Shown here: positions 3,152 through 12,181 of the stretch, piece by piece
How the letters are laid out: every line of letters starts with the position of its first letter
Numbering within the stretch: the stretch's first letter is position 1
IMG/VR virus record: IMGVR_UViG_3300044843_000488
Location: 1-64,000 of that record
DNA length: 64,000 bases
Direction: 5' to 3' (one strand)
Source of the DNA: a virus
Program-made: the position numbers and the translations under genes
The notes under the pieces: model-generated
The model's input: only the letters and a program-made list of their open reading frames with translations
Told to the model about the DNA's origin: nothing
The model's database searches: none

Positions 3152-3230
3152 GCCTGTTAGGCCATCCTAACGAGAACGGCTGGCGTCTCCATCCAAACAG
3201 AGCTATGCTGCGAGGACCTTCTGGCCTGGC

Positions 3231-3521: not shown

Positions 3522-3742
3522 CTCAATCAGTTTTTAAAGACCTCTTTCAGTTAAAGAAAGAACTTCGCGAAACACACTCATTCTTGTGTTTCTTTGTTGT
3601 GCTCTTACTGTTGGTCTTTGTTTGGCGCTTTCTTGTGGCCTTTGCCATCGGAGTAGCTGCCACGGCCATCTGGCCCACTATTCCTTTCTGGCCTGTTGTT
3701 GGCCTTGTGGTTTCTCTAACTTTTCTCATTCCCGCACAATGA
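3518..3742 (+). CDS. Small membrane protein (74 aa)
   Basis: A charged N-terminal ~20 residues, then two hydrophobic segments (about residues 22-42 FLCFFVVLLLLVFVWRFLVAF and about 47-72) separated by IWPTIPFW, consistent with two transmembrane helices. Overlaps both neighbours by 4 bases (ATGA), so it is translated in series with the reductase gene. Function unknown; such small membrane proteins are frequent in cyanophage early operons. Confidence 0.65.
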   Translation: MTQSVFKDLFQLKKELRETHSFLCFFVVLLLLVFVWRFLVAFAIGVAATAIWPTIPFWPVVGLVVSLTFLIPAQ

Positions 3743-6018
3743 ATACTGACTTCTCTCCTTCGGCACCCGCAGCAAATCCCGTCTTTTACCGCACTTATAG
3801 CCGCAAACTTGATACAGGGCGAGAGAGTTGGAGTCATGTGGTTGAACGCACACTTGCTGGCATAGCTGACCTCGGTGAATTGTCTGAAGACGAAAAAGCT
3901 CTGATTTACCGCATGCAGGCGGAACAAAAAGTTTTGCCTTCGGGTCGTTGGCTTTGGGTTGGCGGAACTAAATGGATTGACGATCCTTCAAACTATTCCG
4001 GAGCTTACAACTGCACTTCCACTAATTTGGTGGATTGGGAAGCCTTTGGTCTCATGATGGATCTTGCCATGATGGGCTCTGGTACTGGCGCAATCCTTGA
4101 AGATCGTTGCATCAGTAAGCTTCCAGTTATCCGAAATAGTTTCAAGATTGTCGCTGTTTCGGCTATCGGTACTGTTCCCGCAGGTCAGCGCAAAGAAGTC
4201 ACTCATGTGACTTATACAGGTAATAAAGTCAGCATTTGTGTTGGCGACAGTCGTCAAGGATGGGTTGACAGCTATCAGGCTCTTCTTGAATGTGCAAGCG
4301 ATGAATGCCTTGATTCAACGTGCCCGGTTGAGGTCACTGTGGATCTTTCAAATGTTCGACCGGCTGGGGAGACACTGAAAGGCTTTGGTGGGACAGCAAA
4401 CCCAATTAAGCTTAAAGATCTATACGGTCGTATGGCCGCTATTCTCAACCGTGCTCAGGGTCGGAAACTGTCTTCCGTTGAATGTTGTCTGCTGATTGAT
4501 GAGGCCGCTGCTGTCGTAGTTGCAGGGAACATCCGCCGTTCCGCCGGTATGCGTCAGTTTTCTTCAGACGATGACTCTGCTCGTTTAGCTAAGCAGTACC
4601 TCTGGCAGCAGGACAGCGACGGCAACTGGCGTATCGACCCGGAGCGTGATGCATTGCGAATGGCTAACCACACCCTTGTTTTTCATACAAAGCCGTCGAG
4701 GGAGGTGGTTTATCAGTCGGTGCGAGACCAGTTCATTTCGGGTGAGGGTGCTATCCAATTTGCGCCAGAGGCCATTGCGCGTTCCAATGCCGACATCCTT
4801 AAAACGCCGGAGCAGCGGAAAATCTTTGTTGATCTTTACTGTGATGAGGGCATTGATACGGCGGCTTCTTATTTGTGGATGCAGCTTCCGGAATGCTCCT
4901 ATGAGGAAATGCAGCACCGCATGGGGCGTTATGGGCTAAATCCCTGTGGTGAAATTCTCGGTTCTGACTTTCACTGCAATTTGTCTGAGGTCCACCTTAA
5001 CCGGATTGATCCCACTGATATCCATGGCCAAACTGAAGCCTTCAAAGCCGCTGGAATTGCAGTGGCAGCCCTCCTCCACCACCGCTTTACCGTCAAGCGC
5101 TACAGAAAGAGTCGTGAGTTGGACCCTATCGTGGGAGTCAGCTTCACCGGTCTTTTCGACTTCTTTGTCCACTCCTTTGGAGTCGCTTGGCTCCAATGGT
5201 GGCAAGCCGGAAGACCTAATACAGACGAAGGAAAAGCGTTTAGGGCGGCTGAGCAAGGTTATTTGATGCGCTGGCGCCGAACTGTTGAGGATGCAGTTAG
5301 TGCCTATTGCGAGCGTAACGGACTCCGTGTTCCTAATCGCTGCACAACTGTTCAGCCCGCAGGGACCAAAAGTCTTCTGACGGGTGCATCTTCTGGGTGG
5401 CATCCTCCTAAGGCCGCACGCTTTGTTCGCCGCATTACCTTCCGCAAGGACGACCCTGTTGCCTTGGCTTGCCTTGACTTTGGTTATTCCGTCGTGCCTT
5501 CTCAGTCGGACAAGGATGATGAAGGCCGTCTTCTTACCGATCCTTTTGACCCTCGTTGCACAGAATGGCTTGTTGAAATCCCAACTGCTGTGAGCTGGGC
5601 AGGTATGGAAGGTGCCGATCAGATTGACATTAGTCAGTTTTCTGCACTAGCTCAGTTTGACTTCTACATGCAGGTGCAGAAGTACTACACCACGCACAAC
5701 ACCTCAGCCACAATTGAGTTTCGCGAGCATGAGATTGAGCCCTTGGCCGACGCCATATTTTCCGCCATTGACAACGGCGATGGCTATATCTCTGCGGCTC
5801 TATTGGCGCGTTTTGACGCCAATGAAACGTTCCCTCGGCTACCTTTTGAGCCTATTGATGAAGCTCGTTACGATGAGCTGCACGCCCAGGTTCTGGAGCG
5901 CAGACAAACCTCTGATTTCTTTGCCGCACTTCAAAAGTATGACAGCGGCGAACTGGTAGAGGCCGGTCCTGCTGGCTGCGATTCAGACAAGTGCCTTCTT
6001 CCCCTTGCAAAAGGTTGA
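3739..6018 (+). CDS. nrdJ: Adenosylcobalamin-dependent (class II) ribonucleoside-triphosphate reductase
   Basis: Converts ribonucleotides to deoxyribonucleotides using coenzyme B12, supplying phage replication. The start is the ATG at 3739, overlapping the preceding TGA, giving 759 aa, close to the ~740 aa monomeric Lactobacillus-type enzyme; the frame runs open further upstream but that part is antisense-like. Visible: first active-site Cys in NCTSTNL (C92), the NPCGE finger-loop motif (C403, E405), second redox Cys ten residues later in FHCNL, AGNIRRSAG, and a C-terminal C-x4-C pair (C747/C752) for re-reduction. Needs host or environmental B12. Class assignment is secure. Confidence 0.96.
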   Translation: MNTDFSPSAPAANPVFYRTYSRKLDTGRESWSHVVERTLAGIADLGELSEDEKALIYRMQAEQKVLPSGRWLWVGGTKWIDDPSNYSGAYNCTSTNLVDWEAFGLMMDLAMMGSGTGAILEDRCISKLPVIRNSFKIVAVSAIGTVPAGQRKEVTHVTYTGNKVSICVGDSRQGWVDSYQALLECASDECLDSTCPVEVTVDLSNVRPAGETLKGFGGTANPIKLKDLYGRMAAILNRAQGRKLSSVECCLLIDEAAAVVVAGNIRRSAGMRQFSSDDDSARLAKQYLWQQDSDGNWRIDPERDALRMANHTLVFHTKPSREVVYQSVRDQFISGEGAIQFAPEAIARSNADILKTPEQRKIFVDLYCDEGIDTAASYLWMQLPECSYEEMQHRMGRYGLNPCGEILGSDFHCNLSEVHLNRIDPTDIHGQTEAFKAAGIAVAALLHHRFTVKRYRKSRELDPIVGVSFTGLFDFFVHSFGVAWLQWWQAGRPNTDEGKAFRAAEQGYLMRWRRTVEDAVSAYCERNGLRVPNRCTTVQPAGTKSLLTGASSGWHPPKAARFVRRITFRKDDPVALACLDFGYSVVPSQSDKDDEGRLLTDPFDPRCTEWLVEIPTAVSWAGMEGADQIDISQFSALAQFDFYMQVQKYYTTHNTSATIEFREHEIEPLADAIFSAIDNGDGYISAALLARFDANETFPRLPFEPIDEARYDELHAQVLERRQTSDFFAALQKYDSGELVEAGPAGCDSDKCLLPLAKG

Positions 6019-7208: not shown

Positions 7209-7391
7209 ATGCAGCTAGAAGAAGCGTTTCAAATTCTCTACCGTGGCCAGAGCAACGTTGCCCATGTTGCGGCTGCTGTCGACTTGCCTCTGGGCAAAAT
7301 GAAATCCCTCTTCCGCGAATACGTCTCCCGTAATCCGCTTGATGAGCAGGCTTGGCTTAACGACATTGTTATGACGTGGCCTTATGCTTAG
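7209..7391 (+). CDS. Small HTH-like protein (60 aa), picocyanobacterial type
   Basis: Begins MQLEEAFQILYRGQSNV; the central part (VAHVAAAVDLPLGKMKSLFREYV) is compatible with a helix-turn-helix, and the end reads MTWPYA. I recall similar short proteins in picocyanobacterial genomes, which would fit host origin, but I cannot verify this. Its last four bases overlap the convergent integrase gene. Confidence 0.6.
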   Translation: MQLEEAFQILYRGQSNVAHVAAAVDLPLGKMKSLFREYVSRNPLDEQAWLNDIVMTWPYA

Positions 7392-8479
7392 GTCAGCCTG
7401 TCCTGGATAGATCGTTTGAGGTCTTCTTTTTTGCACCATTTCAAATAGGTCTTTTTATGGACGTCAACGCCGTGGCCCATCAGTTGCGCGGCGTCCTCTG
7501 TTCTCACATGGCTGTATGCCTGGTGCGTGTGGAGCCTGGCGGCGTAGGCGTGGCGAAGGTCGTAGCTCGATGGGCTGCTCCATTCAGCTAGGTGCTTCCA
7601 CCGGGTGAAGAAGGTCGAGACTTTGCTGCCCAGTTCCCGGTGGGTTGATTCCGGCACGAACTCGGGTATGTCCCCGGACCGGAGGCTCCAGCGCTCGATC
7701 CACTCCGGATGGGCGGGCATCACCGGGCGGTATCCGGTCTTGGAGTTGGCGGCGATCTCGATCCAACCCTTGGCGTCGGGTCTGGATTCGAGGCGGAAGA
7801 CCTCGTGGTTACGGAGGCCGTAGGTGGCGATCAGGCCCATGGCGGTTTTCCAAGGCCCGTCATGGAGGTTGTCGACAAACCCGACAACTTGCTCGTCAGT
7901 CGGCAGATCCCTGGGATCGAGGATTTTGTCGCCGCTAAAGGTGCTCTCGGCCCTGGTGCGGTCAAGCCAGTCCCGGTCGATCCCCACACCGATCTCGAAC
8001 AGCCGCCGGGCTGTGGTGACGCGACGAAGTCGTTCGCGGCTGTCAAAGGGGGCGCGGAGCACCCACCGTTTGACCGCTTCTGCGCTGACCCCACCCCGAA
8101 ACGCCTGCAGCTCGCGGATGTGGCGCGCGTAGTCGGTGTGGATGCTGGTGCCCCGCCGGGTGAGGTGCTCCTTGAGGCGCAGGGTCAGGGCCGTCCAGCC
8201 AGTCAGCTCCTCGGCGCTCCCAATTTGGGAGGTCTTGCGCTCGATCAGGGAGGGGGTCTCCTCCAGCTCCAGGCAGAAGCGGAAGGCCCGGTTCAGGGCG
8301 TCAGACTCACGTGAATCTATACACGTGGATTTGATCTTCGTGCCATCCGGAAATGGTTGCGTAGCACGGATGTAGTAGATGGGCGATTGAGACGTCAGTC
8401 GCAGCCTAAAGCGGCAGCCCATCTCAGCGAGGACAGCGTTGCGCTCCTGCCAGGCGGCCAGGCGTTGTTGTCTACTCAT
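7388..8479 (-). CDS. int: Tyrosine recombinase / phage integrase
   Basis: Site-specific recombinase for phage integration and excision. With the ATG at 8479 (GGAG seven bases upstream) the protein is 363 aa. Catalytic set visible: Arg I in TYGLRNHEV (R223), Lys in NSKTG (K247), box II YDLRHAYA (R309), His in LMGHG (H336) and nucleophile Tyr in KKTYLKW (Y345). The N-terminal ~180 residues are the arm- and core-binding part. Coding GC in 7600-8300 is visibly higher than in the structural genes, which suggests separate acquisition. It lies about 240 bases from the tRNA-Arg gene, on the tRNA's 3' side, the usual place for an integrase beside its attachment site. Confidence 0.95.
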   Translation of the reverse strand: MSRQQRLAAWQERNAVLAEMGCRFRLRLTSQSPIYYIRATQPFPDGTKIKSTCIDSRESDALNRAFRFCLELEETPSLIERKTSQIGSAEELTGWTALTLRLKEHLTRRGTSIHTDYARHIRELQAFRGGVSAEAVKRWVLRAPFDSRERLRRVTTARRLFEIGVGIDRDWLDRTRAESTFSGDKILDPRDLPTDEQVVGFVDNLHDGPWKTAMGLIATYGLRNHEVFRLESRPDAKGWIEIAANSKTGYRPVMPAHPEWIERWSLRSGDIPEFVPESTHRELGSKVSTFFTRWKHLAEWSSPSSYDLRHAYAARLHTHQAYSHVRTEDAAQLMGHGVDVHKKTYLKWCKKEDLKRSIQDRLT

Positions 8480-8716
8480 TTCTTTACTCCGCAACGCCTG
8501 TCCAAAATAGGATGAGACTGCTCGCGGCGCAAGGGATCCCAGTCCAGGACTGCTGTCCTGTTTTGTATAGGTGTCTCAAGTCAGTGCCCAAGCGGCTTTT
8601 GCGCGGCTTAGAAGGCAGACTAAGACCCCTGTCAACGACTGGGTTTCTCAAGCCGTCTCTATTTGGGCTTTACTCAGCAACACAAAACTGGATTGGATGC
8701 TGAGGCGATGAAAAGA

Positions 8717-8790
8717 CGGGCCGTGCTGGACTCGAACCAGCGACCGAGTACTTAGAAGGTACTTGCTCTATCCAGCTGAGCTAACGGCCC
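8717..8790 (-). tRNA. tRNA-Arg (anticodon TCT)
   Basis: Folds as a complete cloverleaf on the minus strand: acceptor GGGCCGT/ACGGCCC, D stem GCTC/GAGC, anticodon stem AGTAC/GTACT around loop CTTCTAA (anticodon TCT, reads AGA), T arm GCTGG-TTCGAGT-CCAGC, discriminator G; no encoded CCA. It may supply Arg for a codon rare in the host. Its position 240 bases from the integrase also makes its 3' half the prime candidate for attP core identity with a host tRNA-Arg gene. Confidence 0.95.
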
Positions 8791-8850
8791 AAATCCCTTG
8801 CCAGGACAAGGTTGTTGCCACTGTAACGCGGGACCCAAAAAGTTCAGTTG

Positions 8851-10446: not shown

Positions 10447-10607
10447 CCCTTACCTTGGCCTCTGTATTTTTTGCGAGCACTAGCACGCTTAGTGCGACCT
10501 GAAAAGACACGGGAACGCACACGCCAGCCGTCACCAATTCGTGTCCTTTTAGGCTTACCAGCGATATGAATAGTTCCGCTGAGTCCTTTCTTTGCGCGTA
10601 CAGCCAT
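10443..10607 (-). CDS. Very small basic protein (54 aa)
   Basis: ATG overlaps the endolysin stop (TAATG), so it is the last gene of the lysis operon. The product is strongly basic (MAVRAKKGLSG...KPKRTRIGDGWRVRSRVF...RASARKKYRGQGKG) with almost no acidic residues. It could bind nucleic acid or membrane. Function unknown. Confidence 0.55.
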   Translation of the reverse strand: MAVRAKKGLSGTIHIAGKPKRTRIGDGWRVRSRVFSGRTKRASARKKYRGQGKG

Positions 10608-11797
10608 TATTTGTTAAGAAGAATACCCCACCCAGTTCCTGGACCTTCAACAGTCCATCTGGGAAGGAAGTTTTTGATTGAATACTTAAGGTGATCACCG
10701 TTCTTATTAGCGAGATATCCGCCAGTAATCACGGACATTTCTCCGTAGGGGTCGTTGACCACTAGATAGGAATCGTCAAGCAGTCCAACGACCAAAAGCC
10801 AGTGCCCCGTGCCAGTCGGCGCTGTATTCGGTCCTTTGTGCAGCACACCAATCGGCACTGGAATTCCCTTTTCCAGCTGAATCTTGATGTCGCTTAAGGC
10901 CAAATTCTGTCGATACGACCCACGAACACCAAATGACTCCATAGCTCTAAGTTGAGCCTTGTAGTCAGTGGTATCTCCGAATTGCTGTACGCGCTTCAAG
11001 TAGAAATCATCTTTTTGACTACTTTGAAGCTTTCCTGGTCTCAAAAAGTCAACAGCCATCGCACAAGTGCTTGAAAAGCACATGCGATACGCCTGATCTG
11101 TTTCGGAGTCAAGCTGGGAAAAGAAAGGAACCGGTAGATCTATGCCGGTGTCTTTATCTGATGGGAGTTTGGTAGTTGAACCGGCGTACTGATCAAGCAG
11201 CTTAATAAGCTTGCGACTGTATGCCGGATCAGTTGCGTAACCCTCTTTCACTAAGAGCTGAGCAGCTTCTTCCCGAGTCGCGGCTCTATTGATTCCTTTG
11301 TACGCGTCGTAGTCTTTGTACCAGCGGTTAACAACGTAGTCGACACCCTCTTGGATAGAGGCGAAATTCATGAAGCGAGCCTCAATGGTTACCCACTCGC
11401 CCTTGATAAACTCTTTCGTTGTCTTAATAGTTCCGCCAGTTCTACCTGTTTGCTTCACTCCCCAGAAATTGAACTTACCACTGGGGTAGCGGCCAAATCC
11501 AGACTCAAGTGCCCATTGTGCCGCAAGGACTTCAGGGAATTTAGCTCCGGCAATAGAGGCGGCTTTTTCAATACCTGCCCAGGTGTTTTCCACTTCGGCT
11601 GCAGGCTCTTGCTGAGGTGCTTTGGCGCGGAACAGCTCGATCCATTCAGCTTGTTCCACCATCAAGGATGGGTCAGCTTTTGCAACGTGTTGCTGAAGCA
11701 AGTCAACAGCAGCGAGATGCTGAGGGTTATCGGGATTGAAGTATTTGAAAAAATCTCGCAGTTTGCCTGGTGCGAGAGCTAGATCAGACATTGTCAT
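10607..11797 (-). CDS. Two-domain endolysin: glucosaminidase plus C39-like peptidase
   Basis: Predicted peptidoglycan hydrolase for host lysis (396 aa). Residues ~70-205 form a FlgJ-type glucosaminidase domain with the catalytic Glu in AQWALESGFGRY (E98) and FNFWGVK. Residues ~220-392 resemble Peptidase_C39_2: oxyanion Gln in FFSQLD (Q228), Cys in YRMCFSSTC (C240 or C245), His in GTGHWLLVVG (H332) and Asp in VNDPYG (D349). A leading ~65-residue helical part is unassigned. The combination would cut glycan and a peptide bond. It has no signal peptide, so it needs the holin-like genes just upstream. The second ATG at 11791 is an alternative start. Confidence 0.9.
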   Translation of the reverse strand: MTMSDLALAPGKLRDFFKYFNPDNPQHLAAVDLLQQHVAKADPSLMVEQAEWIELFRAKAPQQEPAAEVENTWAGIEKAASIAGAKFPEVLAAQWALESGFGRYPSGKFNFWGVKQTGRTGGTIKTTKEFIKGEWVTIEARFMNFASIQEGVDYVVNRWYKDYDAYKGINRAATREEAAQLLVKEGYATDPAYSRKLIKLLDQYAGSTTKLPSDKDTGIDLPVPFFSQLDSETDQAYRMCFSSTCAMAVDFLRPGKLQSSQKDDFYLKRVQQFGDTTDYKAQLRAMESFGVRGSYRQNLALSDIKIQLEKGIPVPIGVLHKGPNTAPTGTGHWLLVVGLLDDSYLVVNDPYGEMSVITGGYLANKNGDHLKYSIKNFLPRWTVEGPGTGWGILLNK

Positions 11798-12026
11798 TAT
11801 TTAACCAAGGTGCTCTAATTTCCATGGTCCCTCCAAGGAGTTCCTGGGCTTTAGAGCCATCGGGTGGATGCTCAACAAATTGGGGCTGGGGCTCTGATGG
11901 CTGGCCGGCATGCCACTCTTTCTCCGCCTGGTCAAGTTTTCCAGGAAGAGTGGTGTAGAACTTTTTAGCTTGAGCCCAGCGTAAAAACTCCTCCTGCCAA
12001 GAACGAGAGGAGAATCGCAGTTCTAC
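11784..12026 (-). CDS. Probable -1 frameshift extension of the holin-like protein (80 aa)
   Basis: In the -1 frame relative to the holin-like gene, 80 codons are open from the slippery site to the TGA at 11784-11786, just inside the endolysin start. Coding-like composition: SRSWQEEFLRWAQAKKFY, KLDQAEKEWHAG, a Pro/Glu-rich stretch, then MEIRAPWLNN. Upstream the frame is open only to a TGA around 12110 and has no ATG, GTG or TTG until near its C-terminus. It is best explained as a frameshifted C-terminal domain, soluble and charged, made on a fraction of the holin-like molecules. An unusual start codon is the alternative. Confidence 0.55.
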   Translation of the reverse strand, partial: VELRFSSRSWQEEFLRWAQAKKFYTTLPGKLDQAEKEWHAGQPSEPQPQFVEHPPDGSKAQELLGGTMEIRAPWLNNDNV

Positions 12027-12181
12027 TTTTTTCCGGAACGGGCTTTCAGTACAAGCTGAAGCGCGGACGCGAGAAGCTGCAGCACGGAGTTTGATTTGAC
12101 TTTGTCATTGGGGATCAAAGCCAAGATCTCCGATACGGCAGTAAGGATTACCCAGAAAATGGGGGATTCAATAAGACCCAT
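12023..12181 (-). CDS. Holin-like small membrane protein (52 aa)
   Basis: Start at the ATG at 12181, overlapping the upstream stop; a TTG further upstream is less likely. MGLIESPIFWVILTAVSEILALIP is a hydrophobic segment, followed by NDKVKSNSVLQLLASALQLVLKARSGKK, a second amphipathic helix with a basic end. Its position directly before the endolysin and its membrane character suggest a holin or lysis regulator. Ends in a slippery A-AAA-AAG before TAG, so a longer form may also be made. Confidence 0.6.
   Translation of the reverse strand: MGLIESPIFWVILTAVSEILALIPNDKVKSNSVLQLLASALQLVLKARSGKK
12026..12032 (-). promoter_or_regulatory. Slippery heptamer A-AAA-AAG immediately before a stop
   Basis: Minus-strand reading GGA AAA AAG TAG: the last A of GGA plus AAA AAG is the canonical highly efficient bacterial -1 slippery heptamer, directly abutting the stop codon of the holin-like gene and leading into the open -1 frame described above. 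Confidence 0.6.

Follow-up and report, generated by a model that had tools for sequence, protein, structure and literature searches.

The holin-like gene of the viral sequence examined here is very likely decoded by programmed -1 frameshifting at a slippery heptamer that adjoins its stop codon. The best joint explanation of the data, which we consider highly probable, is a frameshift that would give a 52-aa short form and a minority 132-aa long form, the latter most likely in a membrane complex for lysis. Comparison of related sequences shows the change of frame, the slippery site, the coding nature of the tail and the structure downstream. Confidence in the frameshift comes from the association of heptamer and tail, the switch in the frame under selection, the synonymous retention of the heptamer, the fold of the downstream RNA and the lack of start codons.

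In the proposed mechanism, most ribosomes would stop at the TAG codon and release the 52-aa holin-like membrane protein, presumably the main product. A minority of ribosomes, with tRNAs on AAA and AAG, would slip back one base on A_AAA_AAG beside the stop and read 80 further codons, yielding the 132-aa long form. This form would consist of the same membrane part followed by a helix rich in charge and, at the C terminus, a conserved peptide. Most likely it would be a less abundant component of the membrane complex for lysis, setting when, or for which endolysin, the membrane opens.

Organization of the locus

The window, meaning the whole 64,000-nucleotide stretch analysed (positions 1 to 64,000 of the 74,307-base IMG/VR virus record IMGVR_UViG_3300044843_000488), is very likely from a cyanophage, because the portal protein it encodes is most similar to the one of Synechococcus phage S-CBS4 (39%) and DNA of S-EIVl and S-CBP3 matches the endolysin region. 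Features of the locus are listed in Table 1. The short form translates as MGLIESPIFWVILTAVSEILALIPNDKVKSNSVLQLLASALQLVLKARSGKK (ORF 12181-12023). The upstream 101-aa gene, which has a weak match to phrog_462 'lipoprotein' (1e-07), shares 14 nt with the start of the holin-like ORF, and a further 14 nt are common to the end of the -1 ORF and the endolysin gene, which starts there with its ATG (measured on the identical locus L112).

Table 1. Features of the holin-like locus in the window
Feature	Position	Strand	Details
Upstream small gene, 101 aa	12168..12473	(-)	Hydrophobic N terminus, coiled-coil-like remainder
Short form, holin-like ORF	12023..12181	(-)	ATG 12181, TAG 12025-12023, 52 aa
Slippery heptamer A_AAA_AAG	12026..12032	(-)	Abuts TAG; 3' end of holin-like ORF is GG A AAA AAG TAG
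-1 frame tail domain VELRFSS...LNNDNV	11784..12026	(-)	80 codons, TGA 11786-11784
Candidate stimulatory RNA stem	11955..12026	(-)	12026-12019 pairs with 11962-11955, inner hairpin
Endolysin	10607..11797	(-)	Glucosaminidase + Peptidase_C39_2 (Pfam 1.6e-17 and 9.5e-06); phrog_10051 endolysin, 1e-125

A first-pass annotation, made from the letters of the window, had placed the heptamer directly on the holin-like stop and had described a -1 frame open for 80 codons with a charged C-terminal domain and without a start codon until near its end. The coordinates were right, with the gene on the minus strand, and the other features were found as described: 9 K/R and 12 D/E occur among the 80 tail residues, and in a -1 frame open upstream to 12104 the first of ATG, GTG or TTG is an ATG at tail codon 68.

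Elsewhere in the window, a ribonucleotide reductase-like protein is encoded at 3586-6018 (+), with a B12-dependent insertion domain (PF21995, 2.8e-07). A 368-aa protein at 7388-8494 (-), near a tRNA-Arg (8715-8791, -), resembles a tyrosine recombinase by eye; it had no match in Pfam or PHROGs at the cut-offs used.

Conservation of the heptamer and its link to the tail

Relatives were collected with both parts of the gene. The tail as query gave 88 IMG/VR relatives and the holin-like part 25 in a first IMG/VR scan; a profile scan with the latter gave 207 and a T7-like query 106. Because these scans kept the best 80 of 88, 80 of 207 and 80 of 106, respectively, the clusters described below are a sample of best matches. 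In the first count, 87 loci formed 63 clusters, near-identical loci (e.g. L113, L130, L143, L147, L158, L164, L176, L177, L179, L181, L183, L184 and L188) and second extractions of the same contigs having been excluded by hand. Of these clusters, 51 had the heptamer together with a -1 ORF of 30 codons or more and 9 had neither; the remaining 3 (L117, L142 and L193) had the -1 ORF only. The T7-like query, some of whose contigs are shared with the first set, gave 80 loci in 31 clusters, 23 with both and 8 without the heptamer. In these best-match samples, every heptamer-bearing cluster had a -1 ORF of at least 30 codons (51/51, then 23/23 with the T7-like query).

A plain length cut for the presence of a -1 ORF misleads in a group of 7 heptamer-free clusters resembling MedDCM-OCT-S37-C6, because their open -1 frames (41-102 codons) are unrelated to the tail, none being the tail by HMM. 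S-SRP01 (L193) was likewise rejected as a counterexample: its '-1 ORF' is an annotated glycoside hydrolase with its own ATG, and it is still included in the 63-cluster count.

Tail presence was next scored with an HMM built from alignment A7, whose rows belong to the first set, across 167 loci in 87 clusters. The first-pass annotation had proposed a search for conservation in relatives, and the heptamer was found at the end of the holin-like ORF in 143 of the 167 loci (near-identical copies excluded by hand). At the level of clusters, again from best matches, 68 of 87 carried A_AAA_AAG (53) or G_GGA_AAG (15) in frame, located at the stop or close to it. In L002-L008, the seven closest relatives, as well as in many more loci, A_AAA_AAG stands directly, or one codon, before the stop, with the tail in the -1 frame; a sister set of relatives has G_GGA_AAG in its place.

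Heptamer and tail occurred together in 62 of the 87 best-match clusters. The tail was absent from 17 of the 19 heptamer-free clusters and present in 2, and 6 clusters had the heptamer only (Fisher p 2.9e-11, a guide value since the clusters are related). Clusters that were new in the second set numbered 17 with both, 7 with neither, 1 with the heptamer only and none with the tail only. The six heptamer-only clusters comprise five T7-like short tails and one truncated sequence, too short or divergent for the tail HMM, and most of them keep a GW.IS- or HI.APW-like end.

The tail was kept without a canonical heptamer in L117, which has G_GGG_AAG (TCG GGG AAG TAA), and in L142/L143, which have TCA AAG TAG (stops at 3154 and 2608). 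These loci are possible natural tests of one-tRNA slippage; in L142 only one Lys tRNA could slip.

The heptamer is preserved by synonymous choice, with the wobble A (or G) constant through nine different preceding codons. Under independent synonymous choice, the joint log10 P of the heptamers was -27.5 (22 clusters less than 60% identical), a figure overstated in that independence is an idealisation. Chance occurrence of the heptamer was ruled out by these statistics together with the association with the tail. Slippage during transcription is unlikely given that 15 clusters use G_GGA_AAG, which has no run longer than 3 and so counts against polymerase slippage.

A run of six A is a place for sequencing or assembly errors, and a frame error in what is really one continuous gene was considered for this reason. 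The same break is found in many independent contigs and in the isolates S-CBS1, S-CBS3, KBS-S-2A, S-B28 and S-EIVl, as well as in the G_GGA_AAG class, which has no long run; this spread across independent records refutes the error, to which we assign next to no probability. In a ranking of heptamers by efficiency in E. coli, the top three are C_CCA_AAG and the two used by the holin-like gene group, A_AAA_AAG and G_GGA_AAG (PMC4066793).

Arrangements in isolates and other relatives

Isolates with the frameshift arrangement are S-CBS1, S-CBS3, KBS-S-2A, S-EIVl and the T7-like S-B28 and 7B11-B. In all isolate records examined, annotation of the holin-like ORF and tail as a joined gene was absent. 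The -1 ORF of KBS-S-2A (L105; NC_020854) has no CDS, and the tail is annotated from an internal start in S-CBS3 (L104; ATG), S-CBS1 (L108; TTG) and S-EIVl (L191; GTG), the last of which also lacks a CDS for the holin-like ORF. The same holin-like gene, heptamer and tail were also seen in L198, on a contig whose title names an uncultured proteobacterium MAG; it may be a virus contig that was binned with that genome.

Other layouts were found. In S-CBS2 (L107; gp049/gp048, 4636-5126) and L010 (about 4857-5168), the holin-like gene and the tail are separate, adjacent genes with overlapping stop and start; fusion is therefore not obligatory in all relatives. In the Kyanoviridae, a similar C terminus lies on an in-frame TM protein, with neighbours that are lysozyme-like, as judged from their translations by eye, in S-B68 and DSL-LC02, and with different neighbours, not lysozyme-like, in S-CREM1. 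The separate genes of S-CBS2 and L010 and these in-frame TM proteins indicate that the pairing of membrane part and tail has been made in more than one way. Homology between the N termini of the holin-like proteins and those of a single-frame group (L014, L044 and others) appeared plausible by eye and was not supported by profile comparison, in which only the C-terminal 55 columns of fusion and single-frame proteins aligned.

Selection and start codons in the -1 frame

Substitutions were counted in 17 non-overlapping pairs of equal tail length. Upstream of the heptamer, the zero frame had 81/27/213 substitutions at codon positions 1/2/3; downstream, the -1 frame had 170/108/393, in agreement with the coding-like composition that the first-pass annotation had ascribed to it. 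Selection thus acts on different frames before and after the heptamer, as the third-position excess moves from the zero frame to the -1 frame. The excess was already present in the first 15 tail codons (29/21/67).

Start codons in the -1 frame bear on a different reading, in which the tail would be a separate protein made from a -1-frame start, non-standard or reached by re-initiation after the stop, and the heptamer would be incidental Lys-Lys coding. The two-gene versions in S-CBS2 and L010, whose starts overlap the holin-like stop, are in keeping with this, as are the internal starts chosen by the annotators of S-CBS1, S-CBS3 and S-EIVl. Among the 68 heptamer-bearing clusters, 24 have ATG, GTG or TTG within the first 15 tail codons (codons 0-14), so that initiation inside the tail could additionally yield some shorter protein; 25 have one there or upstream. 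Against this reading, a start codon was absent from the -1 frame upstream of the heptamer in 66 clusters and present in 2, absent from the upstream stop to tail codon 15 in 43, and absent to tail codon 30 in 20. Where an ATG exists at tail codon 8, the PPDG block precedes it, and the third-position excess begins within the first 15 tail codons. The first-pass annotation had named a same-frame start with a ribosome-binding site in close relatives as evidence against its proposal; in L004-L008 the first start lies at about tail codon 63. As the heptamer is moreover retained by synonymous choice and missing where the tail is missing, we regard a separately initiated tail as very improbable. Long and short forms made by -1 frameshifting, as first proposed from the window, are strongly supported by the comparison with relatives.

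RNA downstream of the heptamer

Folding of the downstream RNA was compared with shuffles that preserve protein and codons in 46 clusters, each with an N-free -1 ORF no shorter than 60 codons and 200 nt. The mean z was -1.48 for +6 to +99, against +0.29 for the control, the last part of the same -1 ORFs (Wilcoxon p 5.6e-9). With dinucleotide shuffles, applied to the 51 heptamer-bearing clusters (50 for two of the four spans), the mean z for +6 to +96 was also -1.48 (50 clusters), with controls at -0.49 and -0.12. As a group, the clusters show the stable downstream RNA expected of a stimulator. SD-like sites upstream were few and gave a weak signal (9 of the 51 clusters, with 4.4 expected).

In the window itself, the candidate stem pairs GUAGAAC with GUUCUAC and begins at the last base of the heptamer, which it abuts without the usual spacer. 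Against protein- and codon-preserving shuffles, z reached -2.38 when the initial 80 nt of the -1 ORF were folded and -3.02 with 120 nt; spans starting 6 nt later were weak (z -0.57 and -0.82). The spans were picked after the fold had been seen, and the window result depends on the span. Long hairpins of very high stability (-52.6 to -64.1 kcal/mol over 117 nt) were observed about 110 nt past the heptamer in L009, L011, L012 and L017.

The short form and the lysis module

By position, the endolysin, the holin-like ORF and the 101-aa gene make up a lysis module. The name holin-like, given in the first-pass annotation, holds for the architecture and for the position next to the endolysin, as expected of a holin; it does not extend to a match with a known holin family. 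The short form fits a holin in its 52 aa, its hydrophobic helix or helices and its basic tail. Hydropathy over 17 residues (2.16 and 1.21) gave one clear hydrophobic helix and a second helix, and an AlphaFold model has helices at 7-22 and 31-49 (mean pLDDT 76.5). In PHROGs the short form matched phrog_22542 (function unknown; E 7.5e-10); Pfam and NCBIfam gave no match, and no described holin family was matched. From its position, a role of the gene in lysis is likely. Control of the timing of lysis by the ratio of short to long form is plausible.

The closely spaced pair of in-frame starts that marks lambda S was not found: the holin-like ORF has one ATG (12181), with a TTG 12 codons upstream in the open frame.

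The tail domain

The tail protein is conserved to its last block, the C-terminal peptide PDGSKAQELLGG.M.I.APW. Its model has a helix at 10-40 and then a mostly low-confidence part that includes this peptide (mean pLDDT 70.1, pTM 0.35). A search of solved structures with the model gave no match below E 7.9; in a viral structure library, the best matches were F4YCM9 (E 1.1e-3) and S-PM2 Q5GQH8 (E 0.17).

The layout of a membrane anchor, a helix and then a Pro-rich tail would also suit a spanin-like or other envelope protein that is not a holin partner, with the C-terminal peptide reaching the cell wall or the outer membrane, which cyanobacteria possess. The Kyanoviridae form, with Lys before the TM segment in sequences read by eye, suggests a C-terminal part outside. 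The short form has basic residues following its first helix and at its C terminus, which point instead to a cytoplasmic tail, again from reading of the sequence, and the tail had no spanin family match in Pfam, NCBIfam or PHROGs. A spanin-like long form is accordingly judged unlikely, and a minority subunit alongside the short form is preferred.

The overlap of the -1 ORF with the endolysin gene raises a further possibility, that the frameshift is real and chiefly brings ribosomes to the overlapping endolysin start by translational coupling, the tail peptide being secondary. Overlaps of 4-32 nt, compared with the 14 nt seen here, occur in most endolysin-containing relatives. Short overlaps are, however, ordinary in phage operons; the tail is conserved as a protein to its last block, and T7-like and other relatives have a following gene that either encodes no endolysin or lies clear of the -1 ORF. 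A precedent in favour is the MS2 lysis gene, which is recounted as a frameshift-coupled case in the available part of the PRFect paper (PMC10885494). Coupling as the chief role is considered improbable, and a frameshift that serves to make the long form is retained.

Relation to known frameshift and lysis systems

The tail assembly chaperone G/GT frameshift of lambda-like phages was reportedly described by Xu, Hendrix and Duda in 2004, a study cited in PMC6070908 and PMC10885494. As proposed for the holin-like gene, a short phage gene there has a conserved -1 shift close to its stop and gives a short and a minor long form. The lambda slippery site, G_GGA_AAG, is one of the two heptamers found in the holin-like genes. 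It differs in sitting between the major tail and tape measure genes, whereas the flanking genes here are an endolysin and a small TM/coiled-coil gene. The -1 frameshift cassettes of dnaX and IS elements use A_AAA_AAG, the same heptamer in the same direction; the holin-like genes differ from these in having no consistent upstream SD-like stimulator and in having the stop at, or one codon past, the heptamer.

Dual-start holins, lambda S and the 24.1/24.1* and 26/26* proteins of SPP1 (PMC6316719, as far as available, which also covers tail frameshifts), resemble the present case in that one lysis gene gives two related membrane proteins of different length, with timing a possible outcome. Their products differ at the N terminus through the use of two starts; here the difference would lie at the C terminus, where frameshifting would add a whole conserved domain. 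In Streptomyces BI2 phages, GeneMark-predicted frameshifts occur in genes near predicted holins, with the remark that frameshifts may lie near lysis genes (PMC9671017); these are actinophages, and the passages available contain neither a comparative test nor a holin-like gene with a conserved tail. Holins go unmentioned in the available part of the PRFect paper (PMC10885494), and PMC6157547, PMC6070908, PMC13313380 and PMC3483164 concern, in the parts available, tail or transposase frameshifts, or none. A full-text literature search, with subscription journals mostly outside its scope, did not turn up any description of frameshifting in holins or in lysis genes of cyanophages. What would be new is a classic frameshift cassette on a holin-like gene.

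Implications

Tentatively, a large set of cyanophages of sipho-like and T7-like types may set lysis through the ratio of short to long form, as a clock or a gate for the adjoining endolysin. The same tentative reading would have the slippery site selected in two interchangeable versions, with other lineages using two overlapping genes or one fused gene. If the frameshift is real, gene models would be corrected in S-CBS1, S-CBS3, KBS-S-2A and S-EIVl, the holin-like gene would have a short and a long form set apart by an entire C-terminal domain, and control of lysis in cyanophages would become testable by a single synonymous mutation. In tailed phages, programmed frameshifting is known mainly for its part in tail assembly; it would then also shape lysis proteins, and would do so in viruses that infect major photosynthetic bacteria of the sea and of fresh water.
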